The notes under the pieces were generated by a model, which saw only the letters and a program-made list of their open reading frames with translations, was not told the DNA's origin and did no database searches. A DNA stretch of 20,026 nt from a virus. Of this stretch, positions 3,459-20,026 are shown piece after piece. Where the stretch lies: positions 1 through 20,026 of IMG/VR virus record IMGVR_UViG_3300036864_000090; one strand, written 5' to 3'. The position numbers and the translations under genes are program-made. The stretch's first letter is position 1. Every line of letters starts with the position of its first letter.

Positions 3459-3485
3459 GCCGCTACGGCAAATGGCGTGTCGGGC

Positions 3486-3560
3486 TGTAATCTGTTCACA
3501 GTACGTACGCCGTCTGAGCCTCGGGCCGGGTCACACAGAAACTCTGACACTCCCGAGGAG
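3486..3560 (+). promoter_or_regulatory. Promoter/leader module upstream of the major capsid gene
   Basis: TGTAAT (3486-3491) is a -10-like hexamer. It is followed by GTACGTAC and then the block CTGAGCCTCGGGCCGGG (3514-3530), which recurs before the major tail and tape measure genes. A 23-base stretch, 3509-3531, is identical to 14535-14557. CCTCGGG (3519-3525) can pair with CCCGAGG (3552-3558), placing half of the capsid gene's GAGGAG ribosome binding site (3555-3560) in a stem. No conserved -35 is visible. The repetition is seen directly; promoter activity and translational control are inferences. Confidence 0.6.
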
Positions 3561-3569
3561 ACACAGACC

Positions 3570-5405
3570 GTGGACCCGATCACGCTCCAAGAACTGCTGG
3601 ACGAGCTTGCCCGCGAGGGCGGCAACCTGACCGATTTCCTGGCCACCGCAGTGACGGCTGGTCGGATCTCCGTCGAGCACGCGGACGCTCTGCTGACCGA
3701 GGCCCAGGCTGCGGCCGAGGTCATCGTCAATGCAGAGACCCGCACCCCCGCCGATGTGGCGACCCTGACCACCCTGGCCGACGCCGTGGATGCTGTCCGC
3801 GAGACCCGCACGGGCCTGGTCGAGACCGCCGCCGCCGAGGCCCAGGCCATCTCGGATCTGGCCGCGCGCATCGCGCCGGTCGCCGACACCGCGACTGACC
3901 CGGCCGACGGCGACGCCCCGGCCGACGACGAGCCCGAGGTCGCTGACGAGCCCGAGGTTGTCGTTCCCGACGACGCCAGCTCCATCACCGAGCCGGAGCC
4001 GGTCACCGCGAGCACCCCGGCCCTGCCGACCATTCCGCGTCCGCGCGTGGACGTGGCCGCCATCGCCCGCCGGACCCAGCGTCCCGCCCCGGTCAACATC
4101 CCCGAGGGCGGACAGATCCCGTTCGGCGGCGCGCTGGTCGCGTCGGCCGGTGCCCCCGGCGGCCGGAGCCTCGGCCAGGTCTACAACACCTGGGACCAGG
4201 TGGGCGACGCGGCTATGTCCGCGTTCGGTTCGATGTCCCGTGGTCAGCTTCAGTCGCTGGTCGCCTCGGCTGCCAACTCGGGCACGGCGTTCCGTCAGCA
4301 GACCGGCCTGGCGAGCTTCCGGATGGAGTTCCCGGACGAGCTGGTCATCTCCGACACCGGCCAGGACTCGACCGCCATCCTCGCCCGCGCCGCCGACCAG
4401 TCCCGCCTGCCGGGCGGATCGCTGCTCGCGGCCGGTGGATGGTGCTCCCCGTCGGAGACCATGTACGACCTGTGTGAGCTGCCGTGTTCGCTCGACGGCA
4501 TCCTGTCCCTGCCCGAGGTCCTCGCGAGCCGGGGCGGTATCCGCTACACCCGTGGCCTGAACTTCGAAGACATCTACAACGGGACGGGGTACTTCCACTT
4601 CACCGAAGCGGAGATGATGGCCGATCCCCGTCCGGACAAGCCGTGCATGGAGATCCCGTGCCCGTCCTTCACGGACGTTCGGCTCGACGTGGACGGGCTC
4701 TGCATCACCGGCGACATCATGCAGAACCGGACCTACCCGGAGGTCGTAGCCCAGTTCATTCAGGGCGCGATGTGCGCGCACGCCCACCGCGTGAACGCGT
4801 TCAAGATCGCTGCGATCTCGGCCGGTTCGACCAACGATGGCGCGATCACCATGGCCGGTCTGGGCGCGACCAACTCGATCCTCTACGCGATCGAACTGGA
4901 GGTCATGGCGTACCGCTACCGTGGCCGCCGGTCGCAGGCGGACACCAGCCTGCTTGAGCTGGTCGCCCCGTTCTGGATCAAGGCAGTGATCCGGGCGGAC
5001 ATCGCCAACCGCAACGCGCCGTCCGGCATCGGCAACCCGCAGGCCGTGAGCGACGCCGAGATCGTCGCCTGGTTCGCCAGCCGGGGTGTCGCCGTGCAGT
5101 TCGTGTACGACTGGCAGGACCTGATCGGCGTGAACGAGGACGACCCGGGTACCGCCGTCGTGGACTACCCGAACACGGTCGAATTCATCCTCTACGAGGC
5201 GGGTACCTGGGTGGTTCCGTCGCTCGACGTGATCACCCTGGACACCCTGTACGACTCGACGCTGATCAAGCAGAACAAGTACCAGGCGCTGTTCACGGAG
5301 CAGGCGTTCGCGGTTACCGAGCGCTGCTTCGGCTCGCGCCGGTTCTCCGTGCCGGTCTGCGCCAACGGAAACACGGGCCTTCAGGTCCAGGCGGTCTGCG
5401 CGTAA
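3570..5405 (+). CDS. Major capsid protein with N-terminal scaffold-like domain (HK97 type)
   Basis: The start is GTG 3570-3572, with GAGGAG (3555-3560) 9 bases upstream. A longer frame to 3477 exists, but it would run through the repeated promoter/leader element. The product is 611 residues. Residues 1 to about 105 are helical and Ala/Glu-rich (ITLQELLDELAREG), followed by an acidic Asp/Pro linker to about 150; together they look like a scaffold (delta) domain removed by the upstream protease. From about 165 on it resembles actinophage HK97-fold capsid proteins, with a Cys-containing GGWCSPSETMYDLCE motif (residues about 289-303), KPCMEIPCPSF, and a C-terminal AFAVTERCFGSRRFSVPVC strand region. 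It would form the icosahedral shell. A perfect hairpin after the stop may reduce read-through into later genes. The capsid call is strong; domain borders are approximate. Confidence 0.9.
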   Translation: MDPITLQELLDELAREGGNLTDFLATAVTAGRISVEHADALLTEAQAAAEVIVNAETRTPADVATLTTLADAVDAVRETRTGLVETAAAEAQAISDLAARIAPVADTATDPADGDAPADDEPEVADEPEVVVPDDASSITEPEPVTASTPALPTIPRPRVDVAAIARRTQRPAPVNIPEGGQIPFGGALVASAGAPGGRSLGQVYNTWDQVGDAAMSAFGSMSRGQLQSLVASAANSGTAFRQQTGLASFRMEFPDELVISDTGQDSTAILARAADQSRLPGGSLLAAGGWCSPSETMYDLCELPCSLDGILSLPEVLASRGGIRYTRGLNFEDIYNGTGYFHFTEAEMMADPRPDKPCMEIPCPSFTDVRLDVDGLCITGDIMQNRTYPEVVAQFIQGAMCAHAHRVNAFKIAAISAGSTNDGAITMAGLGATNSILYAIELEVMAYRYRGRRSQADTSLLELVAPFWIKAVIRADIANRNAPSGIGNPQAVSDAEIVAWFASRGVAVQFVYDWQDLIGVNEDDPGTAVVDYPNTVEFILYEAGTWVVPSLDVITLDTLYDSTLIKQNKYQALFTEQAFAVTERCFGSRRFSVPVCANGNTGLQVQAVCA

Positions 5406-5417
5406 CCCTCTCTGGTC

Positions 5418-5450
5418 GGGTCCGGTCGCATCGTTACTGCGACCGGACCC
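5418..5450 (+). terminator. Hairpin after the major capsid gene (partial terminator or RNA-stabilising element)
   Basis: GGGTCCGGTCGCA (5418-5430) pairs perfectly with TGCGACCGGACCC (5438-5450), a 13-bp stem with a 7-base loop, starting 12 bases after the capsid stop codon. No T-run follows and the next gene has no visible promoter, so it more likely attenuates transcription or protects the capsid mRNA than stops transcription fully. Confidence 0.65.
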
Positions 5451-5477
5451 CCAGCCCGAAACGACTAGGGAGACGAA

Positions 5478-6329
5478 ATGCCCCAGGTTTACCCTCCGCT
5501 CCGGATCGATCCGCCGTCGGTCGAGCGTGCACTCGGCGGTCTGTACTCGGTCGCGCCGCCCCAGGACGGCCCCGGCGAGGGGAACCGGTGGGAGAACGGC
5601 GTTGAATACCAGGCCGAGACCTGCGCCGACCCGACCACGTGGGCCGTCACGTGCGGCACCGACAACGCACGCTTGCCGAAGGCATCCACGCTGGAGCTGC
5701 CGACTGTCACCGGCACGCCGTTCGTGGCCTACCTCGGTATCCTCTGCACGAAGGTCGGCTACACCTTCGAAGAGTTCGCGCGGCTGACCCGCAACGGGCT
5801 CGACATCTGCGAGCAGCGCGCGGTCGAGCGGACGTTCTGGACCGGCGACATGGGCAACGATCCGCATCTGGCGGACCCGACGACCACGATCCTCGCCAAC
5901 TCGGATGTGACCCCGCTCGGCGTGCTTCAGGGCGTGGCCGCGCTGGAGTCGTGGCTCGGTGACAACTACTGCGGTGTCGGCGTGCTGCACGCACCGCGCG
6001 GGCTGTCTCCGTACGCTGCTAACTTCCAGTTGATCCGGGGCACCGGCGCACGGCTGACGACCCCGCTCGGCACCCGCTGGGCCTTCGGCTCTGGCTACTC
6101 GGTCAACACCGGCCCCGACGGCACGCCCGCCCCCGACGGCTCGGCGTGGATCTACGTGACCGGCCAGGTCAATGTCTGGCGGTCCGCGATCTGGATGCAG
6201 CCGGACGAGCTGGAGCAGTCGTTCAACCGCACGACCAACGATGTCGAGATGTTCGCCGAGCGGGCCTTCGTCATCACCACGGAGTGCACTGTCGCAGCGG
6301 TTCGTGTCCGTCTCGACTGCACGTGCTGA
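5478..6329 (+). CDS. Probable second capsid-fold protein (capsid paralogue / minor capsid protein)
   Basis: This 283-residue protein starts at ATG 5478 with AGGGAG (5467-5472) upstream. It has a long central helix-rich part (TFEEFARLTRNGLDICEQRA, then VERTFWTGDMG), then a compact beta region. It ends with ERAFVITTECTVAAVRVRLD followed by CTC. That ending parallels the end of the major capsid protein (EQAFAVTERCFGSRRFSVPV): the same position, an [AF]-rich strand, one Cys in the middle and one near the end. The helix with E...FW.G is also reminiscent of HK97-type shell proteins. It could form pentamers, act as a minor shell subunit, or be a capsid-associated protein that shares only the last strand. 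It directly follows the major capsid gene. Assignment is by eye; structure prediction would settle it. Confidence 0.6.
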   Translation: MPQVYPPLRIDPPSVERALGGLYSVAPPQDGPGEGNRWENGVEYQAETCADPTTWAVTCGTDNARLPKASTLELPTVTGTPFVAYLGILCTKVGYTFEEFARLTRNGLDICEQRAVERTFWTGDMGNDPHLADPTTTILANSDVTPLGVLQGVAALESWLGDNYCGVGVLHAPRGLSPYAANFQLIRGTGARLTTPLGTRWAFGSGYSVNTGPDGTPAPDGSAWIYVTGQVNVWRSAIWMQPDELEQSFNRTTNDVEMFAERAFVITTECTVAAVRVRLDCTC

Positions 6330-6343
6330 TCGGAGAATCCCCC

Positions 6344-6571
6344 ATGTCCGAAGTCCTGCTGGAGCTGAACCACTACGTCCGTGGCGAGATGGCTACCAAG
6401 CTGCTCGCCGCCGCCCGCGAGTTGGGCTTCGGTGTGTCCGTGATCAAGTCGCAGTCCGAAGGCTTCCTCGTGCCGGTGGAGGTCCATCAGTACCTGTTCC
6501 CATCGCAGTACGAACCGATCATCCCCCCTGTGATCGATCCGGCCGCCGACTTCGCCGACGAGCTGGAGTAG
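6344..6571 (+). CDS. Small structural-region protein of unknown function
   Basis: The product has 75 residues, starting at ATG 6344 with CGGAGAA (6331-6337) 6 bases upstream; the upstream extension of the frame overlaps the previous gene and is not needed. The N-terminal two thirds look like a small alpha/beta unit (MSEVLLELNHYVRGEMATKL, then LLAAARELGFGVSVI). The C-terminal part is Pro-rich and acidic (IIPPVIDPAADFADELE) and probably disordered. It follows the capsid genes and precedes the large surface protein, so a decoration or joining role is possible. No family is recognised. Confidence 0.65.
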   Translation: MSEVLLELNHYVRGEMATKLLAAARELGFGVSVIKSQSEGFLVPVEVHQYLFPSQYEPIIPPVIDPAADFADELE

Positions 6572-6608
6572 TTGACCCGTCCGTAACCACAGCAGGGGGG
6601 AAACGAGA

Positions 6609-9335: not shown

Positions 9336-9658
9336 CCGCCGCAACGCACGCCCACTCCAAATCCAGCCCGACGAAGTTTGCTGCCACGGGCGTGACTGAT
9401 GGCTCGGGCAACGTGACGTTCAACTTTCCGGTCGGGCTGTTCTCGGCCGCCCCGGTGGTCACGGCCCAGTACCAAGGGGCCGCGTCATCCTCGCCGGTGG
9501 ACTACCGGATCACAGCACGGTCGGCTACCAGCGTCACGCTGAATGTCCGGCAGTCCCTGGCTACCGTCGTCGCTCTGATCGGTCTCACGATCCTCGCCCA
9601 ATCGCAGCCGTTGGCGGGGGCAACTATCCACGTGATCGCCTCGGAGATCGCCCCGTGA
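9332..9658 (+). CDS. Small beta-rich structural protein (fibre/decoration C-terminal-like domain)
   Basis: The product has 108 residues. The start is GTG 9332-9334, overlapping the TGA of the previous gene (GTGA); the frame extends far upstream, but only inside that gene. It reads as a single beta-rich domain: VTDGSGNVTFNFPVGLFSAA, then APVVTAQYQGA, DYRITARSATSVTLNVRQS and ATIHVIASEIAP. This pattern (GNVTF.FP..F..APVV.A, then TS.TLNVRQ) resembles end domains of actinophage tail or surface proteins. Here it is a separate gene, translationally coupled to the large surface protein before it and to the one after it. It may be a subunit of the same appendage. No TM segment or signal peptide is seen. 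Confidence 0.7.
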   Translation: MTAATHAHSKSSPTKFAATGVTDGSGNVTFNFPVGLFSAAPVVTAQYQGAASSSPVDYRITARSATSVTLNVRQSLATVVALIGLTILAQSQPLAGATIHVIASEIAP

Positions 9659-11730
9659 GCAATGTGACGTGGTTCCCCGACGCGCCTCCGTTCCCGGGCA
9701 CGTCGGCATGGGAGTACTCAGGCAACTCGGGCGCGTCGTACGTCCCGTACACCGGGAGCATCATCAATCAGGTACTCGGTCCGACCGGCACGCAGCGATT
9801 CCGGGCGTCGTTCACTGTCCCGTCCGGTGCACCGAACCACATGACGATCGCGTGGCGGGGTGACATCCACGACGGCACGGTCAACCAGCCGTCAGAGCTG
9901 TGGATCGATGGGGCGTTCGTTGCCATGGGAGGCAACAGCACGACTGCGATCTTCACTGCTTCCCTGCCGACCCCGGCGGCCGGGGCGCACACCGTAGAGA
10001 TCCGGGTCGGCGCTGCCGATGACAACGGCCCCGGCACGTTCCTGACCTCTGTAGACGTGGACGTGTTCAACTCGATTCCTTGTGCCTGCTGCGCACTCCC
10101 AGAGCTTTGCGGGACATCACTGGTCGAAATGCAATTCGATGCGGTGGCCGAGAGTACTCCCGGCGCTGCTGGCTGGAGCCAGGTCAACCTGTTCCAGACC
10201 GCTGATGGGGTCAAGCTCACCACGAATATCTCCGGCTACAACTCCCCCGGGAATCCGCCGCCATCGCCGACGCCAGTAGTGGACTACACCTTCGCCACCC
10301 CGCAGAACTATGTGCGAGGCGTTCGTCTGTGGAACCAGTGCGGCGGAGACCTAGGCGACTCCGATGGGCTGAGCAATACCACAGTCGTCACATTCCTGGA
10401 CGCAGCTAACAACGTCCTCTACACAGGGAATCTGAGCGCCGGGAACGGCGCTGCACCGTTCACCACGCTAATCCCCAGCGGTGCTCTGCTGAACGGAGTC
10501 AAAACCGTTCGGCTATCGAACCTCGGCAAGCAATCCGCGAGCAGTGCTTCCCCGTTGTGGCGCGAGCTGCAAGCCCTTCAGGTTCAGCCTGCGTACGCGC
10601 ATCTGTGCTGCGAGCCGGTGGTTGGGGCGACGTACGAGATCGACTGGTCCTACGCGCACCGGGCCAGATCCGGATCGGAGACGGCACAGCTCCGGATTGG
10701 GGATGCCGCCAACCCGCTCGGCACCAATCCGATCATAGACACTCACAACACAGTCCCCGCCAACGGCTGGACGTTGCGATCGGGAACCGTTCCTATCGGT
10801 GCCGGGTTCCCGTCGATCCGAATGGAATTCCAGGCTCTGGCCCCTGGCGGCAGCGTGGGAAACTTTCTCGATGCCTGCTCGGTCGTGCTTCGCCGAGTGC
10901 TCCCTACCCCCGCTAACTTCGGGGAACAGCTCACCAACGGTGGATTCGAGAACACTGGTGGGGGCCCCGGCACAGTGACCTTTCCCCCGACAAGTACCCC
11001 CGGTTCTGGCTGGAGTACCACCGATGGCTGCGCTTGTCTGGAGATCTGGGGGACGGGTGCGATAGGCGTTCCCTCATTCGCTGGCGTCCGGCATGCTGAG
11101 ATGAACGCTTTTGTCAATGGAACGCTTTTCCAGAATGCCGCGCTGGAGACCTGCGAAAACCTCGTCACCTGGTACGACGGAAACGGCAACAAGCTGGTAC
11201 CTGCGGATGTGACGCCTTGTCCGGTGGGAGGGCCCGCGCTTTCTAATCCGTTCGTCACCAATCTAGTGATGACCGGCGCGTTCTTCGGTGACGGCCCGGA
11301 CCCGGCCGGAGAGAATATCTGCGCGGTAGTCCCAGCGCCGTCATCGACCACGCATTTCGCAGCGCCATCCGGTGGATGCTATGACCCGGATGGGCTCGCT
11401 AATCCCACTATGACGTGGACCGGCCCGCTCAATCAGATTGAGCTGGAGTATGGCAACCTGCCGCAATCCTCGGGTGGGGTACAGGTCAATTTCAACAGCG
11501 CGGAAACCGGGCTGTTGACGTGGCCGGTCAATGGGACGCCGATGGTTGCCGGTGAAGAACGCACGAGCAATCCGACCCCGGCCGGTGGCTACGCCGTACT
11601 GCGGTACATCTCCGGACCTGTCGGGGTCAACGCACCGAAGTCGGCCAGTGCGTCTAACTGGTGGCTACATCAGGGATCGACAGACAACACCACGCCGCCC
11701 ATCCGATTCCGCCTGACGCTATTCCCGTGA
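9655..11730 (+). CDS. Large virion surface protein with several carbohydrate-binding-like domains
   Basis: The product has 691 residues, with a GTG start at 9655 overlapping the previous TGA. Residues 1 to about 140 form a beta-sandwich-like domain (QRFRASFTVPSGAPNHMTIA, AGAHTVEIRVGAADD) ending in a Cys cluster, PCACCALPELC. Residues about 150-315 look like a second galactose-binding-type domain (YTFATPQNYVRGVRLWNQCG, NGVKTVRLSNLG). Residues about 322-411 contain YEIDWSYAHRARSGSETAQL and GNFLDACSV, the second half of a known bacterial adhesin-type domain. Residues about 427-498 contain NGGFENTGGG, CLEIWGTGAIGVP, HAEMNAF and LFQ, the first half of the same kind of domain. The halves thus appear in swapped order. 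No signal peptide or TM segment is seen. It probably binds surface glycans as part of the virion. GC is slightly lower and codon use more mixed than in the capsid genes. Confidence 0.72.
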   Translation: MSNVTWFPDAPPFPGTSAWEYSGNSGASYVPYTGSIINQVLGPTGTQRFRASFTVPSGAPNHMTIAWRGDIHDGTVNQPSELWIDGAFVAMGGNSTTAIFTASLPTPAAGAHTVEIRVGAADDNGPGTFLTSVDVDVFNSIPCACCALPELCGTSLVEMQFDAVAESTPGAAGWSQVNLFQTADGVKLTTNISGYNSPGNPPPSPTPVVDYTFATPQNYVRGVRLWNQCGGDLGDSDGLSNTTVVTFLDAANNVLYTGNLSAGNGAAPFTTLIPSGALLNGVKTVRLSNLGKQSASSASPLWRELQALQVQPAYAHLCCEPVVGATYEIDWSYAHRARSGSETAQLRIGDAANPLGTNPIIDTHNTVPANGWTLRSGTVPIGAGFPSIRMEFQALAPGGSVGNFLDACSVVLRRVLPTPANFGEQLTNGGFENTGGGPGTVTFPPTSTPGSGWSTTDGCACLEIWGTGAIGVPSFAGVRHAEMNAFVNGTLFQNAALETCENLVTWYDGNGNKLVPADVTPCPVGGPALSNPFVTNLVMTGAFFGDGPDPAGENICAVVPAPSSTTHFAAPSGGCYDPDGLANPTMTWTGPLNQIELEYGNLPQSSGGVQVNFNSAETGLLTWPVNGTPMVAGEERTSNPTPAGGYAVLRYISGPVGVNAPKSASASNWWLHQGSTDNTTPPIRFRLTLFP

Positions 11731-11900
11731 TGCCCCGCACACCCGAAGGTGCGAGTTGTCACCCAACCGAGAGGAGGCCCCTTAACCGATAGCGCTGGCT
11801 CGCCCCCTTGCGTGATCGGTCCAACACACTACGCGACAATAGAACAACGCACGCACGTTCGATGGCCCGTCCAGCCGTCGATCTGAGAAAGGGGCGACCC

Positions 11901-12170
11901 GTGACGGGGACGGATATAGCCGCGATCATCACAGCGATAGGTGGCGCAGTGGCAGCAGTCCTCGGCGCGCTTGCTCTGGTGAAGCGCCGGTCAAGTGAAC
12001 TAGGCAAGCAACATCAGGCAGACTGCGAGGACTGCTACGTCGAACGGCGGGCTCTGATTCGGTGGATCAACCGGCTCAGAGATCTCCTCGCGATCCACGG
12101 AATTCCAGAGCCGGAAGGGCTTGACGATGAACTCGGGAACCGACGGCAAACCGTCCAGGCGGAAGAGTGA
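11901..12170 (+). CDS. Small membrane protein with one N-terminal TM segment
   Basis: The start is GTG 11901, with GAAAGGGG (about 11886-11893) 7-8 bases upstream; a TTG 31 codons earlier is possible but lacks a good site. The product has 89 residues: a hydrophobic stretch at about residues 5-26 ([20 protein letters not shown], then LV), a basic stop ([10 protein letters not shown]), a [10 protein letters not shown] motif and a charged helix. This suggests an N-terminal anchor with a cytoplasmic or coat-facing tail. Similar small proteins with a TM segment and CxxC occur in actinophage structural or lysis regions. It could be a holin-like protein, but there is only one TM and no endolysin is in view. 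It overlaps the collagen-like gene by 44 bases, so the two are probably co-produced. The 170 bases upstream hold no gene and only a weak hairpin at about 11736-11753. Confidence 0.68.
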
Positions 12171-12873
12171 TGCTCCGGTTGGGTGGCGACTGGTCGGGCT
12201 GATCATCCTCGGCGTGGCCTGCATCGTTGCCGTGGCAGCATACGCGCTGCAAGGCAAATCCTCGGAGAGCAACCGCGCTGACACTGCGGTCGAGCAGGGT
12301 CAGGACGTACAGGCCGACGCCAAGACCCTCGCGGCCGGGATCCAGAAAGAATGCGCCAAGGGCAAGAAAGTCTCGCCGGTGATCGCCCCCTACTGCCCGA
12401 AGGCCAAAGAGGTCATCGAGCAACCGCCGATCGAAGGCAAGCCCGGGCGAGAGGGCCCGATGGGACCTGCTGGCCCAACCGGTGCTCCCGGCCGACCAGG
12501 GGCCGACAGCACCATTCCCGGGCCGACGGGTCCGCCGGGGGCAGACAGCACAGTGCCAGGGCCAGGCGGCCAGACCGGATCACCCGGTGCCGACAGCACA
12601 GTGCCAGGTCCGACCGGACCGCCTGGGGCCGACAGCACCATTCCCGGGCCTACGGGTCCGCCCGGGGCCGACAGCACGATCGCCGGACCGACCGGCCCAG
12701 TCGGTCCTATGGGTCCGGTCGGTCCACCGGGGGTGGGGATCGTGTCGGTAAAATGTGAGACCGACGCGCCGCACAACCAACTGTTCACGTTCACCTTTAC
12801 GTTCACGCTCAGCAACGGCGAGGTAGTGCCGGTGACCTGCCAGAACGCTCCGACGGAAGGCAACTCCCCATGA
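12127..12873 (+). CDS. Membrane-anchored collagen-like protein
   Basis: The product has 248 residues. ATG 12127 is preferred over TTG 12121 because GGAAGGG (12113-12119) is 7 bases away. Layout: a basic N-terminus (KPSRRK), one TM segment at residues about 22-41 ([20 protein letters not shown]), a charged helical stalk with two Cys (76 and 90), a collagen-type Gly-X-Y region at about 104-203, and a C-terminal beta domain (about 204-248) with two Cys. The positive-inside rule predicts N-in, C-out topology. The collagen part has five GADST[IV][PA] units, each breaking the Gly-X-Y register by one residue. Collagen-like proteins are common in actinophages as fibres. The TM anchor suggests display on the host membrane, or delivery to it, rather than a simple tail fibre. 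ATGA overlaps join it to the next gene. Confidence 0.8.
12499..12690 (+). repeat. Collagen-coding short repeats
   Basis: Copies of a GGGGCCGACAGCACC-type unit recur at 39- or 48-base intervals. One 26-base stretch occurs exactly at both 12499-12524 and 12625-12650. The units encode [11 protein letters not shown][IV]P. Such near-identical units can gain or lose copies by slippage or recombination, so length may vary between related phages. Confidence 0.75.
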
Positions 12874-13604
12874 CCGACGTTCCTTTCGATCCCGCCGCGC
12901 TGTCCCCGAACGATTCCCAGATGGACCTGCGCGGGAACCTGGACCGGTGGATGCGGCTGAACGTCCTGGACGACGGCACGCCTACGAGCGGATGGCCAAA
13001 CCGATTCGAGATCTGGAACGAGCAGGCACTCGACGAACTGCGCATCGTCGCCTGGCTGAACGAACGGGGCGAATGGCGCTGCATCCCCGCCAAGGAAAAC
13101 ACTGTCGCCTGGGCGCTGTATATCAAAGAGCTGCCGACCGACCCGGATCACCACACGACGAACGTGTGGCAGATCCTGGACAACCGGACCGATCGCAACG
13201 TTCTGCTCGGGGTGGACTCCCTCGGCAAGCTGGTGGGCCTGAACGCCCCGGACGCAACGTACGGGCCGTGGACCACGATCCCGCTCGACCCGGCTTTCGC
13301 GGCTGCCAGCGGTGGCGGGTACCGCGCGCCCGAGATCCGGTCGGCCCCGGGCGGCATGCTGCAACTGCGCGGCCGGATGTCATCGGTTGGCGCGTGGGTC
13401 GCGAACACTTCCGTGATCGGGACGATCCCCACGAACGACGCCAACGCCAACTCGCTCCGGCCGACGGTGCCTGCTCAGTTGCTGATCCGTGCCAGCTCGA
13501 CCATGGCCAACCTGATAATCAACACGGATGGGACGATCGTCTGCGCGCAGGCTGTCACCGGCGGCAGCAACGCTTCCATCGAAGGTCTACAGCTCTCGAA
13601 GTAG
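12870..13604 (+). CDS. Structural protein with fibre-tip-like C-terminal domain
   Basis: The product has 244 residues, with ATG 12870 overlapping the collagen gene's TGA (ATGA). The N-terminal part (about 1-140) is Trp-rich with a mixed pattern ([39 protein letters not shown]). The C-terminal part (about 145-244) has [42 protein letters not shown] and [12 protein letters not shown]. This matches the style of trimeric tail-fibre or receptor-binding tips in actinophages (RxxxGxxQLRGR, then GTxPxxxxP, then IxxDGTI). Its partner is probably the collagen-like stalk encoded just before: stalk and head made as separate, coupled chains. It lacks a signal peptide and TM segment. A promoter-like element starts at its stop codon. 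Confidence 0.7.
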
Positions 13605-13659
13605 TACGATTGCCGTGACGTAGCTACGCCGTCTGTGCCTTGGGTGATACGCTGTAGCT
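13605..13659 (+). promoter_or_regulatory. Divergent copy of the promoter module, upstream of the endonuclease gene
   Basis: TACGAT (13605-13610) follows the stop codon of the fibre-tip gene directly. TGACGTAGCTACG (13616-13628) matches the same stretch at 14518-14530, and CCGTCTGTGCCTTGGG is a diverged form of the conserved leader block. TAGCTAC (13621-13627) could pair with GTAGCTA (about 13653-13659), next to the ATG. The copy has lost the GGGCCGG end of the block, so it may be weaker or differently controlled. Confidence 0.5.
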
Positions 13660-14505
13660 ATGACAGGTAGAGTACGCGATCTGGCCGGAATTCGCTTCGG
13701 CCTATTAGTCGCGATCGAACGATCAGGTACCGCCCCCGGGACTCGGGGAGCGGCATGGATATGCGTGTGTGATTGCGGTGCAAGGAAAACAGTCCGTGGC
13801 GCTAACTTGACAAGCGGTCGAACAAAATCGTGCGGATGTACGCGGGGTGAATTCAAGGATTTGACGGGTCTTGTACAGGGACGGCTGACCGTTCTGAGGC
13901 GCGTAGAAAACGATACGCGCGGACGATCGCAGTGGCTCTGTAGGTGTTCCTGCGGCGCAACCAAGATCATGAACGGCTCTAACTCATGTAGAGCGACTTC
14001 TTGTGGGTGCGAATCGCGCATACCCAGGGCGAGCCTTGCAGGACAGTCGTTCGGGCTACTCACTGCGGTGCGGGATGTGGGGAAAGACAGGGAGGGCCGT
14101 CGCCTCTGGCTGTGCACTTGCTTTTGCGGCGGCGCACACACCGTACCGGCTTCCCGTCTGACGAAAGGGCACACTCGCTCGTGTGGCTGCATCCGGGGGA
14201 ACAACAAACAGAACACCGTATACCTACTTCGTAACCCTGACGACAGCACAGTCAAGATTGGGATCACCACCGTAGGGCCTAACGCCAAGTCGGATCGGTT
14301 CGGCGAGCACCGGCGCGACGGCTACACAGACCGGGTTTTCCTTCGGTCAGACCTGCCGGGCGGCGCTGCTCGGAGGATCGAACTAGATGTGCTGGAGAAC
14401 CTCCGGGCCCTAGGTGCCCGCCCCATCCGAGGGGTGGAGTACTTCCCCGGCAGCTACCTCGCCCCCATCGTGAGCGTCTTGAGTACTCATCATCTGCTGA
14501 GCTAG
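13660..14505 (+). CDS. Putative GIY-YIG homing endonuclease with three zinc-ribbon-like repeats
   Basis: The product has 281 residues, starting at ATG 13660. Three tandem modules at residues about 10-60, 70-117 and 128-177 share GxxFGLL or GRLTV, then W[IL]C.C.CG, then [KT][ST]xSCGC. Four or five Cys in each suggest zinc binding; such modules occur as DNA-binding parts of phage HNH-type and other homing enzymes. Residues about 185-275 look like a GIY-YIG nuclease: V187-Y188-L189, then K199-I200-G201-I202, then R213 and H217, and a later Glu-containing helix. The expected GIY is VYL and YIG is KIG, so activity is plausible but not certain. Base composition is visibly lower in GC and codon use differs from neighbours, typical of a mobile gene. 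It is bracketed by copies of the promoter element. No intron is evident, so it would be free-standing. Confidence 0.72.
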   Translation: MTGRVRDLAGIRFGLLVAIERSGTAPGTRGAAWICVCDCGARKTVRGANLTSGRTKSCGCTRGEFKDLTGLVQGRLTVLRRVENDTRGRSQWLCRCSCGATKIMNGSNSCRATSCGCESRIPRASLAGQSFGLLTAVRDVGKDREGRRLWLCTCFCGGAHTVPASRLTKGHTRSCGCIRGNNKQNTVYLLRNPDDSTVKIGITTVGPNAKSDRFGEHRRDGYTDRVFLRSDLPGGAARRIELDVLENLRALGARPIRGVEYFPGSYLAPIVSVLSTHHLLS

Positions 14506-14506
14506 G

Positions 14507-14586
14507 TATGATTCGGGTGACGTAGCTACGTCATGCCGTCTGAGCCTCGGGCCGGGTGTCCTTCTAACCTGAGAGGACCCGGTCCC
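14507..14586 (+). promoter_or_regulatory. Promoter/leader module upstream of the major tail gene
   Basis: TATGAT (14507-14512), 5 of 6 bases of the -10 consensus, is followed by the perfect palindrome TGACGTAGCTACGTCA (14518-14533) and the conserved CTGAGCCTCGGGCCGGG (14540-14556). The leader can fold: GGG-CCGG-GTCCT (14549-14562, with a 2-base bulge) against AGGAC-CCGG-CCC (14574-14586, with a 1-base bulge). This holds most of the ribosome binding site GAGAGGA (14571-14577). The site is 13 bases from the ATG, longer than usual. No -35 match is seen. Confidence 0.6.
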
Positions 14587-14590
14587 AGAT

Positions 14591-15292
14591 ATGACCGCAT
14601 GGAAGTCCGTACGGGGTCGCCGGATGCGGCTGACCCGACTCGACGAGTGCTGCAACCTCCTCCCGGCCGCGACCGCCTGCGCCTTCCTGGTCAGCTCCGG
14701 TTTCGTTTCGGTGAACTACAGCCCCGAGGTCAAGGAAGCCGAAGAGATCGAACTGCTGAACGCAGCCGGTGAGATCTGTGTCTCCGACCCCGGCTGTGAC
14801 GAGCTGAAGTGGATCAACCTCACGCTCAGCCTGTGCGTCGTGGATCCCGAGGTTCTGAACTTCGTCACCGGTGCGCCGCTCGTGCTCGACGTGGCGGGCG
14901 AGAGCGTCGGCAACCGGGTCCAGTCCGGACAGTTCTGCACCGCGAACTTCGCTCTGGAGGTCTGGACCGATGTCCCCGGCCAGACCTGCTCGCAGACCGG
15001 TGCCAAGCAGTACGGGTACTTCGTCGCGCCGTGTGTCGGCCGGGGTGTCCTGGGCGACTGGGACATCGAAAACGACGCGCTGAACCTGGAGCTGACGGCC
15101 AAGGCCCGGGCGGGCTCCGGCTGGGGCAACGGCCCATGGGACGTGGACGCGAGCAACGTGCCGGTTCCCCCGGCGCTGGCGATTCCCGGCCCGCTGCTGA
15201 CCCCGTTCGGCGCGACCGACATCCTGGATCTGCACTTGACCACCATCGCGCCTCCGGCCGTCACCGACGGCTGCCAGCCGATGCCCGCGTAA
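14591..15292 (+). CDS. Major tail protein
   Basis: The product has 233 residues, starting at ATG 14591. It begins MTAWKSVRGRRMRLTRLDEC and contains GFVSVNYSPEVKEAEEIELL, then LCVVDPEVLNFVTG, FALEVWTDVPGQTC, GVLGDWDIENDALNLELTAK, SGWGNGPWDV, and ends LTTIAPPAVTDGCQPMPA. This sequence of motifs is highly characteristic of the tail-tube subunits of actinobacterial siphoviruses. The product polymerises around the tape measure to form the tail tube. It has its own copy of the promoter/leader module, in keeping with a need for many copies. It precedes the head-tail joining genes here, whereas siphoviruses usually encode it after them. A 12-bp stem hairpin follows the stop codon. Confidence 0.9.
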   Translation: MTAWKSVRGRRMRLTRLDECCNLLPAATACAFLVSSGFVSVNYSPEVKEAEEIELLNAAGEICVSDPGCDELKWINLTLSLCVVDPEVLNFVTGAPLVLDVAGESVGNRVQSGQFCTANFALEVWTDVPGQTCSQTGAKQYGYFVAPCVGRGVLGDWDIENDALNLELTAKARAGSGWGNGPWDVDASNVPVPPALAIPGPLLTPFGATDILDLHLTTIAPPAVTDGCQPMPA

Positions 15293-15305
15293 CCTCCCAC
15301 CTACA

Positions 15306-15355
15306 GCCGGTCGGCAGAGTTAGGGGATGGCCCTGCCGACCGGCCACCCATCCCC
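15306..15355 (+). other. Two overlapping hairpins (terminator or pseudoknot) before the secreted-protein gene
   Basis: Stem 1: GCCGGTCGGCAG (15306-15317) pairs perfectly with CTGCCGACCGGC (15333-15344), 12 bp. Stem 2: GGGGATGG (15323-15330) in the loop of stem 1 pairs with CCATCCCC (15348-15355), just before the AGAGGAGGA ribosome binding site. The order left-left-right-right is that of an H-type pseudoknot or of two competing folds. Stem 1 alone would serve as a terminator-type hairpin for the major tail mRNA. Pairing is seen directly; function is inferred. Confidence 0.6.
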
Positions 15356-15368
15356 CAGAGGAGGACAC

Positions 15369-15722
15369 GTGCGAAAGTTCATCGCAGCACTCGCGGTCAT
15401 CGTTGCTGTCTCGTTCGTCGGCGTGCGGCCCGCAGACGCTCACCAGATCGGGCATGTCTGGTGTGGAACCGAGGGGCTATGCCAGCTCGCCTACGCCGAC
15501 GGCGATTACTGGATGGCCAAGCGGAACTACGACGATGAGCCGTGGGTCCGGCTAACGCTGGTCTCCGGATGGAACAACGATCACGTCGCGCCGATCACGT
15601 GCGAGAACCGGGGCGCGTGCGTGGTGGTCTATTACGACGCCTACCAGGCACCGGGCTACTTCATGGCCCGCCGCTGGAACGACACCATGGGCCAGCACTG
15701 GATTCGGCTGACGGAGGTCTGA
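15369..15722 (+). CDS. Small secreted protein with duplicated two-cysteine motif
   Basis: The product has 117 residues, starting at GTG 15369 with AGAGGAGGA (15357-15365) upstream; a longer frame from 15327 would overlap the hairpins and spoil the signal peptide. Residues 1-24 are a classic Sec signal peptide: basic MRK, hydrophobic FIAALAVIVAVSFVGV, and a likely cut after PADA (A24). The mature 93 residues are two copies of one motif: C32-x5-C38 ... MAKR (49-52) ... WVRLT (59-63), and C78-x5-C84 ... MARR (99-102) ... WIRLT (111-115). Four Cys in two pairs suggest disulfides outside the membrane. A secreted product is unusual in the middle of virion genes. It could bind the cell wall, alter the surface against superinfection, or be a virion component exported by accident of annotation. 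No family is recognised. Confidence 0.75.
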   Translation: MRKFIAALAVIVAVSFVGVRPADAHQIGHVWCGTEGLCQLAYADGDYWMAKRNYDDEPWVRLTLVSGWNNDHVAPITCENRGACVVVYYDAYQAPGYFMARRWNDTMGQHWIRLTEV

Positions 15723-15726
15723 GCAC

Positions 15727-17076
15727 GTGAGCATCACGCCCCTGGAGTGCGTCAACCCGTGGCAGGACGAGTGCATATGCGGCGCGAGCCACATGCCCTG
15801 CTGGCCGCGCCCGGACACGTCCTGCTGCGACCGGCTGAACCCGGCCAATCCGACGGCAGAGCAGACCGCACAGATTGAGCGGATCCTCCAGGTCTCCACC
15901 GAGATCATCTGGCGTCTGTCTGGCAAACAGTTCGGCGCGTGTCCGGTCACGGTCCGGCCATGCCGCAAGACCTGCGCCCGGGGCTTCACCGGCTATTGGT
16001 CGGACATCGGGTGGATGCCGGTCCTGGAGAACGGGGTTTGGTTCAACCAGAACTGCGACCGCTGCCGCCCCTCCGGTTGCTCGTGCTCGGAGCTGTGCGA
16101 GGTAGACCTCCCCGGCCCTGTGGTCGAGATCCAGTCGGTGACCCTGAACGGCGAGATCCTCCCCGCCGACCACTACCGCGTGGACGACTTCCGTCGGCTC
16201 GTGCGGGTGAAGGGCTGGAACGATGTAGTCGTAGGCAAGCCGGGGATCGGGCACAGCTACGAGGAGATCCCGACCGAGGATGACGGGGTGTGGTGCTTCG
16301 ACCGGCCATCGACCAACGTCGGCCTGAACAGCCTCAACGACCCGCAGGACGCCAACGGCTGCTATATCGTCGGACCGCCAGCGAACGACGTGGATTTCAT
16401 CAGCTTCGCCCCGACCAGCAGCCTCACCGCGTCGTACGACGACACGTCCGGCGACGGCGTGCTCATCACCATGGTGGACGGATTCGACAGTGACCCGTCG
16501 CCGGTGCTGTACCGGCCAGCCATCACAGGTGTCACGTACAACGCTGGTGACGTGGTCCGGTTCTTCGCCGAGGGTGACCCGACCAAATCCGTCCTGTTGC
16601 GGATGACGGCGGGCAGCGCGACCACGGTCGGCGTCGCCCCGTTCATCAGCCTGAACCTGGATCCAGGCGCTGCGTTCGCGGTCACCTACCAAGAACTGGG
16701 TCCGGCGTGCTGGCCGACTTGCCAGGACATGGCCGCGCCGCTGACCGACGACGGCACCTGGGGTGTCACGTACCGGCGTGGTGCGGTGGTCCCGCAGTCG
16801 GGCCAGTGGGCCGCTGGCCTGCTCGCCTGTGAGCTGTATAAGGCGTGCACCGGCGAAGGTGAGTGCGCGCTCCCCAGCAACGCTCAGCGGATCGCGCGGC
16901 AGGGCGTCACGGTCGAGCTGACGCCGGTACTGGTCAAGCCGGGCGAATTCGCGACCGGCATTCCCGAGGTAGACCTCTGGCTCAACTCGGTCAACCCCTA
17001 CCGGGCCAAGCTGCCATCCGCCGTGTTCTCTCCCGACCGGCCAGCGCCGGTCATGACGACCTGGCCGTGCGCGTAA
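15727..17076 (+). CDS. Head-to-tail adaptor-like protein with inserted beta domain
   Basis: The product has 449 residues, starting at GTG 15727 with GGAGG (15714-15718) 8 bases upstream. The N-terminal part (about 20-160) resembles actinophage head-tail adaptors: WPRPDTSCCDRLNPANPTAE, IIWRLSGKQFGACPVTVRPC, CSCSELCEVDLPGPVVEI, then DHYRVDDFRRLVRVKGW. The C-terminal part (about 324-449) continues the same family: CWPTCQDMAAPL, GTWGVTYRRGAVVP, LLACELYKACTGEGECALPS and NAQRIARQGVTVEL. Between them, residues about 175-323 are a beta-rich Asp/Thr/Val segment (GCYIVGPPANDVDFISFAPT and following) that looks like an inserted domain; the usual adaptor is roughly 150 residues shorter. About 22 Cys suggest disulfides or metal binding. 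It would join the portal to the tail-completion proteins. The next gene starts inside its stop codon. Confidence 0.8.
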   Translation: MSITPLECVNPWQDECICGASHMPCWPRPDTSCCDRLNPANPTAEQTAQIERILQVSTEIIWRLSGKQFGACPVTVRPCRKTCARGFTGYWSDIGWMPVLENGVWFNQNCDRCRPSGCSCSELCEVDLPGPVVEIQSVTLNGEILPADHYRVDDFRRLVRVKGWNDVVVGKPGIGHSYEEIPTEDDGVWCFDRPSTNVGLNSLNDPQDANGCYIVGPPANDVDFISFAPTSSLTASYDDTSGDGVLITMVDGFDSDPSPVLYRPAITGVTYNAGDVVRFFAEGDPTKSVLLRMTAGSATTVGVAPFISLNLDPGAAFAVTYQELGPACWPTCQDMAAPLTDDGTWGVTYRRGAVVPQSGQWAAGLLACELYKACTGEGECALPSNAQRIARQGVTVELTPVLVKPGEFATGIPEVDLWLNSVNPYRAKLPSAVFSPDRPAPVMTTWPCA

Positions 17077-17615
17077 TGGCTGACACGCTCGTAGTCCCGT
17101 ACGCGCAGGCCCTGCTGGCCTGCCTCTGCGCCCAGCTCGCCGACACGATCGGGGGTCCGCCGTGTCAGTGCTGCCTGCGCCCGGGTACCGCCCCGCCCCC
17201 AGCCGACTCGTGCTGTGAGTGCAGCACCGGGCAGGGGCAGGCATCGGTGCAGATCGGACCTATCCGGCCGTTGGTCGCCGGGAAGTTCCCCAACTTCGGG
17301 ATCACTGGCACGCTCGACAACTGCACCGAGTATGAGTTTGCAGTCGAGCTGATCATGACCGTGTACCGCTGTGTCAGCGTCGCAGATGACACCGGCTTCC
17401 CATCGTGCGACGAGCTGACCGCTGACACCCTGAAGATCGCCGACGACGCGCGAGCGATGAGACGTGCCATCCTCTGCTGCGACTGGCGGGGTCAGGATGA
17501 TCTGGACGACGCTACGCAGATCGTGCTGGGCGACTGGCGGCCACTGTCCCCGCTCGGCGGGTGTGCCGGGGGTCAGCAGAGTGTCATTGTCCTACTCGGT
17601 TCCGAGTGCTGCTGA
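17076..17615 (+). CDS. Cys-rich head-tail joining protein
   Basis: The product has 179 residues. ATG 17076-17078 overlaps the previous TAA by one base, so translation is coupled. It begins MADTLVVPYAQALLACLCAQ, then PPCQCCLRPG, SCCECSTGQ, and later AVELIMTVYRCVS, DARAMRRAILCC, VLGDWRPLSPLGGC and LGSECC. This pattern is known from actinophage proteins encoded next to the adaptor, usually without a firm function (head-tail connector or neck). It carries 16 Cys in 179 residues (about 9%), several adjacent, so disulfides or bound metal seem likely in the mature particle. No TM segment or signal peptide is seen. Confidence 0.75.
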   Translation: MADTLVVPYAQALLACLCAQLADTIGGPPCQCCLRPGTAPPPADSCCECSTGQGQASVQIGPIRPLVAGKFPNFGITGTLDNCTEYEFAVELIMTVYRCVSVADDTGFPSCDELTADTLKIADDARAMRRAILCCDWRGQDDLDDATQIVLGDWRPLSPLGGCAGGQQSVIVLLGSECC

Positions 17616-17623
17616 CACGTACC

Positions 17624-17863
17624 ATGAGACACATGGATACAGTCACGGTACGCGCGGCGGTACATCTCAGCGGGTTCCCTCTCGGTGAGACGGTCACCGT
17701 GGTTGAGACTCCCATGGTGGCCGGTGCCATTCGCAAGGGCGCGCTGGTACTGGTGGAACGGCATACGTCTCAGTCTGAGACAGGTGAGACCCCGCCTGAG
17801 ATGGATGAGACCGAAGAGACTCACACTGAACTGAGAGTGAAGAGACAGCGAGACCGTGGCTAG
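17624..17863 (+). CDS. Small head-tail region protein
   Basis: The product has 79 residues from ATG 17624; ATG 17633 (76 residues, starting MDTVTVRAAVHLSGFPLGET) is equally likely, and neither has a clear ribosome binding site. The N-terminal half looks like a small beta barrel (VRAAVHLSGFPLGETVTVVE, then KGALVLVE), a layout often seen in short proteins between joining genes in actinophages. The C-terminal half is acidic and polar (SQSETGETPPEMDETEETHT) and probably disordered. At DNA level the gene contains many TGAGAC hexamers. It overlaps the next gene by 8 bases. Confidence 0.65.
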   Translation: MRHMDTVTVRAAVHLSGFPLGETVTVVETPMVAGAIRKGALVLVERHTSQSETGETPPEMDETEETHTELRVKRQRDRG

Positions 17864-18278
17864 GGTCTCAGTCCGTGTCAACCGGGGCGCGATCCAGGCG
17901 TTGATGCTGAAGCCCGGCGGGCCGGTGGACAAGGCAGTGCGTGAGCCGCTGGAACAGACTGCTGCCATCGCCACCGGTACCGCTCCGGCTGACACGGGCT
18001 TCCTGCGGAACAACCGGAGCATCGACATCGACGTGTCCGGCACCCACGCCAAGGGCACTCTCACGTACCACGCGCCGTACGCGATCTTCGTGCTGAAGGG
18101 CACCGGCGTCCACGGTCCGACCGGCACTCCGATCCGGCCGAAGACATCGCAGTACATGGTGTTCCGTGGGCGGGATGGGAGACTGGTCTACGCCAAGGAA
18201 ACCCAAGGGCAGAGTGCCCAGCCGTTCCTTCAGAACGCCTTCCGTGCCGCGTCGCCGTGGCCGGTCACCATCCACTAG
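17856..18278 (+). CDS. HK97 gp10-like tail-completion / neck protein
   Basis: The product has 140 residues from GTG 17856, overlapping the previous gene. It carries the usual marks of this family: a helical N-terminus (DKAVREPLEQTAAIATGTA), APADTGFLRNNRSI, HAPYAIFVLKGTGVHGPTGT, IRPK, YMVFRGRDGRLVYA, and a QGQSAQPFLQNAF end. Such proteins join the connector to the tail or finish the tail tube. The length is normal. It follows two other joining proteins and precedes the tail chaperones, as expected for this role. Confidence 0.8.
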   Translation: MARVSVRVNRGAIQALMLKPGGPVDKAVREPLEQTAAIATGTAPADTGFLRNNRSIDIDVSGTHAKGTLTYHAPYAIFVLKGTGVHGPTGTPIRPKTSQYMVFRGRDGRLVYAKETQGQSAQPFLQNAFRAASPWPVTIH

Positions 18279-18295
18279 CGAGAGGGCCATCCCCA

Positions 18296-18865
18296 GTGCG
18301 CTTCGAGATCGCAGCGGCCGACAAGAAACACGCCGATGAAGACCAGGTATACGAGCTGTTCGTCTTTCAGCTCCCGAACCGCAACCTGGACGGAGATGAG
18401 GAGTACGCCGCCGTCCGGCCGAGCGAGGAACTGCTCATCACCCTCGCCCAGGACGTGTACCTGATCGAAGAGGATCCGGCCAGCTCGCTCGACGTGCTGA
18501 ACCGCATCCTGACCCACGTGTTCAACCCGCTCGATCTGCGGGAGGCGCTGATCGAATCCGGCGACTACCCGGATACCGACGGGGACGGCGACGGCGAGCT
18601 GTCACCGGCCGGACTCACGCTCGCGCGCACGGGCGGCCGGTTGTCGTTCCGCCGGTCGAGCCGTCGCGACCCGCTGGGAGTCGAGACGATCGCCAAGATC
18701 GCCGTGAGCCTGGTCGAGCAGTGGTCGGGAAAAGATACTGGGAAGCCGCAAGACTTTCTGCCACCATCGCACACCACTGGGACACGTTCGAAGCGGACCA
18801 GTTCATCACGACCGGCCGCGACCCGTTCGACCTCCTCGCGGAAATCCGGTTCGCGCGCTTCCTGA
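18296..18865 (+). CDS. Tail assembly chaperone, zero-frame product
   Basis: The product has 189 residues from GTG 18296, with GAGAGGG (18280-18286) 9 bases upstream. It begins MRFEIAAADKKHADEDQVYE and has a compact acidic alpha/beta N-terminal part typical of the lambda gpG-type chaperone, including VETIAKIAVSLVEQW (residues about 128-142), just before the slip site. After the slip site the zero frame is low-complexity Ser/Thr/Arg (SSSRPAATRSTSSRKSGSRA), which suggests that the shifted product is the conserved one. Its role is to hold the tape measure protein and recruit tail-tube subunits during tail assembly. It is followed by the tape measure gene. Confidence 0.82.
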   Translation: MRFEIAAADKKHADEDQVYELFVFQLPNRNLDGDEEYAAVRPSEELLITLAQDVYLIEEDPASSLDVLNRILTHVFNPLDLREALIESGDYPDTDGDGDGELSPAGLTLARTGGRLSFRRSSRRDPLGVETIAKIAVSLVEQWSGKDTGKPQDFLPPSHTTGTRSKRTSSSRPAATRSTSSRKSGSRAS

Positions 18866-19047
18866 ACATCGCCGAGCACTGGCTCACCCGGGCCATGTCG
18901 GAGCGGGAGCGGTTGTCGTTCGACTCCAAGATCCAGACCCCGCCACCCTGGGCGGATCCGGACGACATCTCCGACGAGGCTGCCGCCGATGACGGAGCCG
19001 CATTCATGGACGCGTTCAGCTCAGGCGGCCGGGGCGTTCGCACGTAA
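18296..19047 (+). CDS. Tail assembly chaperone fusion made by -1 frameshift
   Basis: The zero frame is read from 18296 to 18733 (146 residues), then the ribosome slips back one base at GGGAAAA (18727-18733) and continues in the -1 frame to TAA 19045-19047 (104 more residues, 250 in total). The added part reads RYWEAARLSATIAHHWDTFE, then DPFDLLAEIRFARFLNIAEH, like the T part of lambda gpGT and its actinophage counterparts. The shifted frame also has a GTG at 18721, but no ribosome binding site is seen there. Two overlapping chaperone frames immediately before the tape measure gene are a near-universal siphovirus layout. Confidence 0.8.
18727..18733 (+). other. Slippery heptamer GGGAAAA for -1 ribosomal frameshift
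   Basis: The bases G GGA AAA fit the X XXY YYZ rule exactly in the zero frame (codons GGA 18728-18730 and AAA 18731-18733). The -1 frame is open from here to 19047 and encodes the expected second chaperone part. No clear downstream stem was found by eye. Confidence 0.85.
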
Positions 19048-19106
19048 GATGTAGCCAACGTCGCTGAGCTTCGGGCCGGACATCCTTCCATCGAAAGGTG
19101 TCCGGC
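19045..19106 (+). promoter_or_regulatory. Promoter/leader module upstream of the tape measure gene
   Basis: TAAGAT (19045-19050) contains the chaperone stop codon. CTGAGCTTCGGGCCGGA (19064-19080) is the conserved leader block with two changes. The hairpin GCCGGACA-CCTT (19075-19087, one bulged T) pairs with AAGG-TGTCCGGC (19095-19106), a 12-bp stem. It contains the AAAGG ribosome binding site (19094-19098) for GTG 19109. This copy has no GACGTAGCTACG palindrome. Confidence 0.55.
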
Positions 19107-19108
19107 TC

Positions 19109-20026
19109 GTGGGTGCAGAGGTAGTCGGTTCCGCCTCGGTCACGATCGATGCGGACTGGTCCGACTTCGACGAGCAACTCCAGCGTCGCCTGGCCTCGGC
19201 CGCGCGCAAAGCAGGGAACGACGCAGAGAAAATCCTGAAGCGCTCCGGCAAGCGCGCCGGTGAGGAATTCTCCGACGGGGTTGCGAAGGCAGCCAGCAGC
19301 ACCAAGACGCTCGACTCGATCCGCAATTCGATCCAGCGCCTGGAGACCGCCGCGATCAAAGCCGGTGACTCCCAGGTAGACGCCGCCGAGCGGGTCCGGC
19401 TGGCCGAGGTATCGCTCGCCAAGACCAAACGAACTACATCCATGGTCACGATCGACGGTCTTGAGAAAATCACCGCCGCTGAGAACAAGCTGATCAAGGC
19501 CCGCCGCGATGCACAGCGCGTGGACAGCGCCGCCGTCGCCGCATCGAAGGCTCTGGCCGACGCCAGGTCCAAGCTCGCGGCCGAGTCGGAGTCGGCCGGG
19601 GAGAATGCTGGCGAAGCGCTGGCCCGGGGACTGCGCAAGGTCGTGAACAAGGAATCGGCCAAAACCGGGAAGGAATCCGGAGGGTTCTTTTCGAATGCGT
19701 TCCAGACCGCAGCGGCCAAGGGAATCGGTACTGGGCTGTTCCGTATCTTCGCCGCCGGGGCCGCCGCTCTGGTCACTGCCGCGACGCCGCTGTCTACGGT
19801 CCTGGGCGGGGCTGTCGCGGCTGCGGTAGCGCTGGTCGCCGCGATCGGCCAGGCCGCCGGTGCCGGTATCGCGCTGGGCGGGGTCTTCGCCTCCCTGGGT
19901 CTGGCCGCCGCGACCCTGAAAGTCGGCCTGTCGGGCGTAGGTGACGCGCTGAAGGGCGACGCGGACGCGCTGGCCAAGCTGGCTCCGGCCGCTCGTGCCA
20001 CGGTTGATCAGCTACGCGCCATGGCC
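19109..20026 (+). CDS. Tape measure protein (N-terminal part, cut by window edge)
   Basis: The start is GTG 19109; AAAGG at 19094-19098 is 10 bases upstream. The frame is open to the end of the window (306 codons). It begins with a GAEVVGSASVTIDADWSDFD segment, then a long Ala/Lys/Glu helical region with coiled-coil character (DEQLQRRLASAARKAGNDAE and onwards to about residue 195). A Gly/Ala-rich hydrophobic stretch follows at about 209-275 (LFRIFAAGAAALVTAATPLS, then AVAAAVALVAAIGQAAG). This is the usual make-up of siphovirus tape measure proteins, which set tail length and may help DNA cross the membrane. It follows the tail chaperones and has its own copy of the promoter/leader module. Confidence 0.85.
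   Translation, partial: MGAEVVGSASVTIDADWSDFDEQLQRRLASAARKAGNDAEKILKRSGKRAGEEFSDGVAKAASSTKTLDSIRNSIQRLETAAIKAGDSQVDAAERVRLAEVSLAKTKRTTSMVTIDGLEKITAAENKLIKARRDAQRVDSAAVAASKALADARSKLAAESESAGENAGEALARGLRKVVNKESAKTGKESGGFFSNAFQTAAAKGIGTGLFRIFAAGAAALVTAATPLSTVLGGAVAAAVALVAAIGQAAGAGIALGGVFASLGLAAATLKVGLSGVGDALKGDADALAKLAPAARATVDQLRAMA

Follow-up and report, generated by a model that had tools for sequence, protein, structure and literature searches.

The complete IMG/VR record IMGVR_UViG_3300036864_000090, analysed here as a window of 20,026 bases, is from an actinophage-type siphovirus and carries three copies of a putative promoter with a conserved leader, one each before its major capsid, major tail and tape-measure genes. 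These leaders are one case of a wider promoter-plus-leader family that heads late genes in many phages of soil actinobacteria. In this family a -10 hexamer is followed, usually 10-28 nucleotides (nt) on, by a hairpin module with the arms CTG(x)GC and GCCGG and a loop of 5-7 nt, and then by the ribosome site and the start codon. The genes headed in this way are those for capsid, major tail and tape-measure proteins and often endolysin, and the family is found in phages of Gordonia, Streptomyces and Microbacterium and in prophages of Streptomyces, Micromonospora and Actinoplanes. On balance, we favor reading each copy as a promoter for late genes whose transcript carries, near its 5' end, a small conserved hairpin, CUG(x)GC-loop-GCCGG. 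The first-pass annotation had proposed a phage promoter class with a conserved leader before these three genes, and had made conservation of the block in relatives the point on which the proposal hung; the block is kept in relatives, and the proposal is supported. The features of the three units are as follows.

3488-3493, + strand: -10 hexamer TAATCT of the capsid-gene promoter, matching the family -10 consensus
3514-3529, + strand: leader hairpin module CTGAGC-CTCGG-GCCGG of the capsid gene
3555-3560, + strand: Shine-Dalgarno (SD) sequence GAGGAG of the capsid gene
3570-5405, + strand: major capsid protein gene (phrog_777), start GTG at 3570
5418-5450, + strand: terminator-like hairpin 3' of the capsid gene, perfect stem of 13 base pairs (bp), 7 nt loop
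14507-14512, + strand: -10 hexamer TATGAT of the major tail gene promoter
14540-14555, + strand: leader hairpin module CTGAGC-CTCGG-GCCGG of the major tail gene
14571-14577, + strand: SD sequence GAGAGGA of the major tail gene
14591-15292, + strand: major tail protein gene (phrog_792), start ATG at 14591
15306-15344, + strand: terminator-like hairpin 3' of the major tail gene, perfect 12 bp stem
19045-19050, + strand: -10 hexamer TAAGAT of the tape-measure gene promoter
19064-19079, + strand: leader hairpin module CTGAGC-TTCGG-GCCGG of the tape-measure gene
19093-19098, + strand: SD sequence GAAAGG of the tape-measure gene
19109-20026, + strand: tape-measure gene (phrog_934), start GTG at 19109, truncated by the end of the record

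The three leaders, CTGAGC[CT]TCGGGCCGG[GA], lie exactly where the first-pass annotation had placed them (3514-3530, 14540-14556 and 19064-19080), and the genes downstream are those it had named; allowing up to three mismatches, neither strand of the window holds a further match. Positions 3509-3531 are identical to 14535-14557 over 23 bases, as it had stated, whereas none of 60 Markov shuffles gave an exact repeat longer than 17. The sole real repeat in the window longer than 23 nt, 26 nt at 12499 and 12625, is a coding repeat in a collagen-like gene. Of the hexamers that had been proposed, those at 14507 and 19045 are upheld, and for the first copy TAATCT at 3488-3493 matches the family consensus better than the TGTAAT at 3486-3491 that had been chosen.

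Several lines of evidence suggest that the module belongs to a promoter. Aligned on the hexamer, the family has the -10 consensus GGNTACNCT and no conserved -35. Of 62 leaders chosen by gene position only, with no -10 requirement, 50 have a TANNNT whose end lies 8-30 nt upstream of the module, compared with an expected 6.9 and a maximum of 16 in 200 shuffles. The spacing between hexamer and module ranges from 10 to 28 nt but is mostly 16-19 nt, so that, with a transcription start about 7 nt past the -10, roughly 10 nt of RNA would precede the hairpin. The tetramer GTAG is enriched in the spacer (13/59 vs 3.3).

The link from the window to the family runs through its closest relatives. An exact scan of viral contigs for the CTGAGC form returned 24 stretches, 22 of which resemble unrelated sequence and are mostly intragenic; the other two (L009 and L012) have genes related to the window tail genes (50-54% protein identity), with the motif directly before the tape-measure start. 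The record to which L009 belongs, G001, has the CTGGC form in place of CTGAGC before its major tail gene (protein 72% identical) and a CTGCGC form before another tail gene, which ties the window's form to the commoner one. For more distant relatives, we fetched loci by capsid similarity and read the sequence upstream of their major tail genes, and many of these have the consensus CGCTGGC-N-GGGCCGGGC. With a broader definition, the module stands before 39 of 82 capsid genes and 24 of 73 major tail genes, compared with 9.6% and 2.1%, respectively, at random places with the same window sizes. Named phages with the module include Gordonia phages Wizard, Bakery, EMoore, Hans, Belphegor, Ashertheman, Sitar, Lilbeanie and Clawz, Streptomyces phage BayC and, with one copy, Microbacterium phage MementoMori. 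A scan of bacterial genomes for the -10 plus the module gave 18 stretches, of which 14 are in Actinomycetes (Micromonospora and relatives, Streptomyces, Actinoplanes) and four look like chance; in the Actinomycetes stretches examined, the module precedes tail, capsid or tape-measure type genes, and a single prophage of Streptomyces sp. MP131-18 has four copies, that of the tape measure included. The four modules of this prophage (L288/L275) also have the upstream element GTACACGCGYCTACCCT in common, possibly an extended promoter specific to this phage type. A plain scan of viral contigs for CGCTGGC-N-GGGCCGGGC yielded mostly chance matches inside genes (about a dozen of 120 had both a -10 and an SD sequence), and its counts were therefore not used. 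A covariance model of 21 positions ranked the real sites first.

The genes that carry the module indicate what it marks. In Wizard (58 kb) the sequence GCTGGC-CGAG-GGCCGG occurs exactly four times, before the capsid, tail, tape-measure and endolysin genes, and EMoore has three copies, before capsid, tail and endolysin. BayC has the module before its capsid and tail genes and before a displaced tape-measure gene. In two further records, some of whose genes are named on our own judgement of the proteins, it precedes the capsid, tail, chaperone-like and tape-measure genes (G010) or the protease, capsid, tail and tape-measure genes, a small gene and a lysin-B-like gene (G006). The suggestion that the leader serves the three most needed head and tail proteins thus stands in part: those genes are headed, but in relatives so are endolysin, protease, tail-chaperone and tail-fibre type genes, which argues that the module marks the heads of late transcription units. 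Perfect stems of 13 and 12 bp follow the stop codons of the window's capsid and major tail genes, whereas every other gene of the window has 4-7 bp; BayC and Clawz likewise have long 3' stems (12-17 bp), and the perfect stems of Wizard and EMoore reach only 6-9 bp, with longer imperfect hairpins predicted after three of the four genes. Given these strong 3' hairpins, the capsid and tail units look like separate cassettes, and in the window each of the two would consist of promoter, leader, gene and terminator-like hairpin.

The module probably works as RNA rather than as a DNA dyad, because its loop varies in length, its 5' arm tolerates an extra base (CTGAGC, CTGCGC, CTGTGC), a U-G pair in its stem is invariant and its spacing to the -10 is loose. 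The 20-nt module folds by itself in the examples taken, at about -4 to -10 kcal/mol. Its arms are almost invariant between phages, whereas the loop is a property of the individual phage: among 57 modules from 22 genomes, the loop is identical in 78% of pairs from one genome and in 5% of pairs from different genomes (0 of 2000 permutations), while the figures for the 12-nt upstream flanks are 50% and 39% and those for the 11-nt downstream flanks 40% and 32%. Phages of G. terrae 3612 have the loops CGAGG, TAGGG or CTGGG, each uniform within the phage. That each phage has its own loop version suggests a phage-specific reader, and a reader that selects the loop would be the simplest account of the uniformity.

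This arrangement recalls the boxB element of lambdoid nut sites, a small hairpin with a stem of about 5 bp and a loop of about 5 nt near the 5' end of phage transcripts, the loop version of which is phage-specific. The actinophage module likewise has a phage-specific loop and would form a small hairpin near a predicted 5' end, behind a -10. It differs from boxB in that it stands beside the start codon of each late unit and in actinobacterial hosts, in that no boxA was identified, although no search aimed at one was made, and in that no N-like protein was found among the proteins common to module phages, a search that a small, fast-evolving one would escape. We propose that the hairpin would act in the nascent RNA, with a universal partner (host polymerase, Nus factors or the ribosome) recognising the arms and a phage-specific factor reading the loop, as N reads boxB. 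In this way the units headed by the module would be cleared for high-level or late transcription, through antitermination, transcript stability or better initiation. More tentatively, and as a possibility that we hold to be the less probable part of the proposal, control of late genes may be nut-like in full, the invariant stem engaging the host transcription machinery and a co-evolving phage factor reading the loop to switch on the capsid, tail, tape-measure and lysis units.

Several observations weigh against this interpretation. No compensatory changes are found in the stem, as the stem hardly varies, and pairing at the RNA level is thus without proof by covariation. Minimum-energy folds of full-length leaders usually use other pairings, so that the module would have to act during RNA synthesis. 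Taken alone, the covariance model is too short for significance with the window copies, two of which score only 12.4 bits (E about 1), and it is the close relative G001 that connects these two with the family. The module is absent from many relatives that have the same structural genes; no convincing copy was found in Mycobacterium phages Swish and Acadian, Microbacterium phages Fransoyer and Megan or Gordonia phage Axumite. Uniformity of the loops could also arise by homogenisation of a short tract between copies, and some of the 22 genomes are related and not fully independent, and the permutation figure should therefore not be taken as a clean probability. Finally, no non-structural protein is common to all module phages, although a fast-evolving small protein would escape such a search, and no protein was found that is in all module phages yet absent from module-free relatives.

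The rival that survives best, which we nevertheless regard as unlikely, is that the module is a leader serving mRNA stability or translation: its 5' hairpin would shield abundant late messages or adjust the access of ribosomes, and no phage-specific reader would be involved. Its place in the 5' untranslated region just ahead of the SD and start would fit such a role, and with strong hairpins after the capsid and tail genes both mRNA ends could be protected. The first-pass annotation had supposed, in a related way, that the ribosome site is held in or against a stem. The predicted unpaired probability of the SD in the window is 0.33, 0.17 and 0.19 (capsid, tail and tape-measure leaders), and shuffles in which module and SD are fixed equal the real burial in 47%, 19% and 8%; across each window and G001 leader the shuffle ranks are 0.08-0.69. 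SD accessibility does not differ between 59 leaders and 73 control starts (p = 0.41), and in G001 the tape-measure SD sits in the loop. Burial thus does not exceed chance, and we rejected sequestration of the ribosome site as a common function. What speaks for the mRNA leader is that in the window and G001 the 3' half of the module can pair with sequence beside the SD, in two to three sequences, too few to judge; in the tail and tape-measure leaders, this SD-side stem has four one-sided changes that keep pairing and none that break it. Phage-specific uniformity of the loop would need a separate reason under this explanation, and a second hairpin after the module does not exceed shuffles in stability (mean z -0.27 across 62 leaders).

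Slightly less probable is that the dyad CTGGC...GCCGG is read as DNA, by a phage activator, sigma factor or repressor bound just past the start site. The strong tie to the -10, the imperfect dyad formed by the arms and the lack of covariation at the RNA level are compatible with this, but the spacing to the -10 varies over 10-28 nt, half-site insertions and changes in loop length are tolerated, and the dyad keeps an asymmetric T where symmetry calls for C. Invariant arms with a phage-specific spacer are also the reverse of usual operators. A regulator operator, which had been offered as an alternative, is weakened further by temperate Wizard, in which none of the four exact copies is near repressor gene 47. 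Stoperators of Cluster A phages are repressor sites of 13 bp that, like the module, are short, oriented, intergenic and repeated; the module differs from them in its tie to the -10 and in that the immunity region of Wizard is without a copy.

We consider it very improbable that the module is a put-type RNA, which would bring about processive antitermination by acting directly on host RNA polymerase with no phage protein. The put RNA of phage HK022 comprises leader hairpins close to a phage promoter and repeated in one genome, and the actinophage module is similar in being a leader hairpin near a promoter, in several copies per genome, strand-specific, near the transcript start and conserved across hosts. 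However, put consists of two defined tandem hairpins and needs both, whereas the second hairpin of the actinophage leaders is neither conserved nor stable beyond chance, and a second conserved hairpin was rejected as a candidate; phage-specific loops within one host strain would also be unexpected. Both boxB/nut and put are invoked here as functional analogies, and membership is not claimed. It is scarcely credible that the module has no regulatory role and is merely a boundary or a recombination-joining sequence that modular exchange has spread: it does lie between gene modules, and the window has a leader copy on each side of an HNH gene, but it is tied to a -10 and to the heads of late units, including the relocated tape-measure gene of BayC, and its flanks are not homogenised along with the loop.

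The element appears so far to be unnamed. Rfam gave no match above the gathering score for the window, L105, L231 or L236. Among described elements, the SAS and ESAS motifs of Cluster K mycobacteriophages and Microbacterium cluster EF are also conserved repeats that adjoin the starts of selected phage genes, with function unknown; SAS is a 13 bp motif, GGGATAGGAGCCC, at the site of ribosome binding, and ESAS is an inverted repeat of 17 bp (PMC3203893, PMC7302621). In contrast, the module is CTGGC-loop-GCCGG, lies 7-45 nt upstream of the SD, is tied to a -10 and extends across phage genera. The published 30 bp repeats of MementoMori, of unknown function, are intergenic and repeated, and the phage has one copy of the module as well, but they were rejected as the same element since their sequence differs. 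In a self-comparison of this phage, the intergenic repeat GGTATAGAGTAGGCGTWAGCCAAACACC was found in the right arm (L268 32244, 38090, 41691 and 46920); it is apparently the published cluster EI repeat and seems to represent another promoter class, probably an early one. A survey of Gordonia phages does not mention the motif (PMC5559632), and we found nothing on it or on a late promoter class in Gordonia phages in a literature search outside which subscription papers mostly lay.

The remaining features of the window are listed below.

59-2692: MuF/capsid protease gene
5478-6329: second head protein gene (phrog_779)
up to 13604: tail-fibre type genes
12121-12873: collagen-like gene among the tail-fibre type genes, with collagen-like Gly-Pro repeats at 12481-12697
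13604-13645, + strand: divergent promoter/leader copy upstream of the HNH-family gene, 3' hairpin arm lost
13660-14505, + strand: HNH endonuclease-family gene (phrog_374), between two leader copies
15727-17076: head-tail adaptor gene

The divergent copy that had been noted at 13605 is real and longer than first described: 13604-13645 aligns with 14506-14551 (GTACGATT...GTGACGTAGCTAC...GCCGTCTGTGCCTTGGG), and it has GTGACGTAGCTAC and GCCGTCTG in common with the tail-gene copy. Together with that intact copy, it places a leader on both sides of the HNH-family gene (13604-14557), as if a mobile gene had been inserted with or beside a duplicated leader; G001 has no HNH-family gene ahead of its major tail gene. 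The capsid reading frame is open upstream across the leader to a GTG at 3477, so automatic start calling would put the capsid start ahead of the promoter element; the GTG at 3570, behind GAGGAG, is the better fit. Separately, Saccharomonospora phage PIS 136 (L227, about 11420-11520) has CRISPR-like repeats, CCGCCCCGC(A/G)CACGCGGGGATGAACC, beside a gene start.

Late-gene control in actinophages is largely unknown beyond a few mycobacteriophages. From sequence alone, the element shows where late promoters, and probably the starts of their transcripts, lie in many phages of Gordonia, Streptomyces, Micromonospora and Microbacterium, and it improves the annotation of start codons. If the nut-like reading is true, the element would represent a new class of RNA-based regulon in a large group of actinobacterial siphoviruses.

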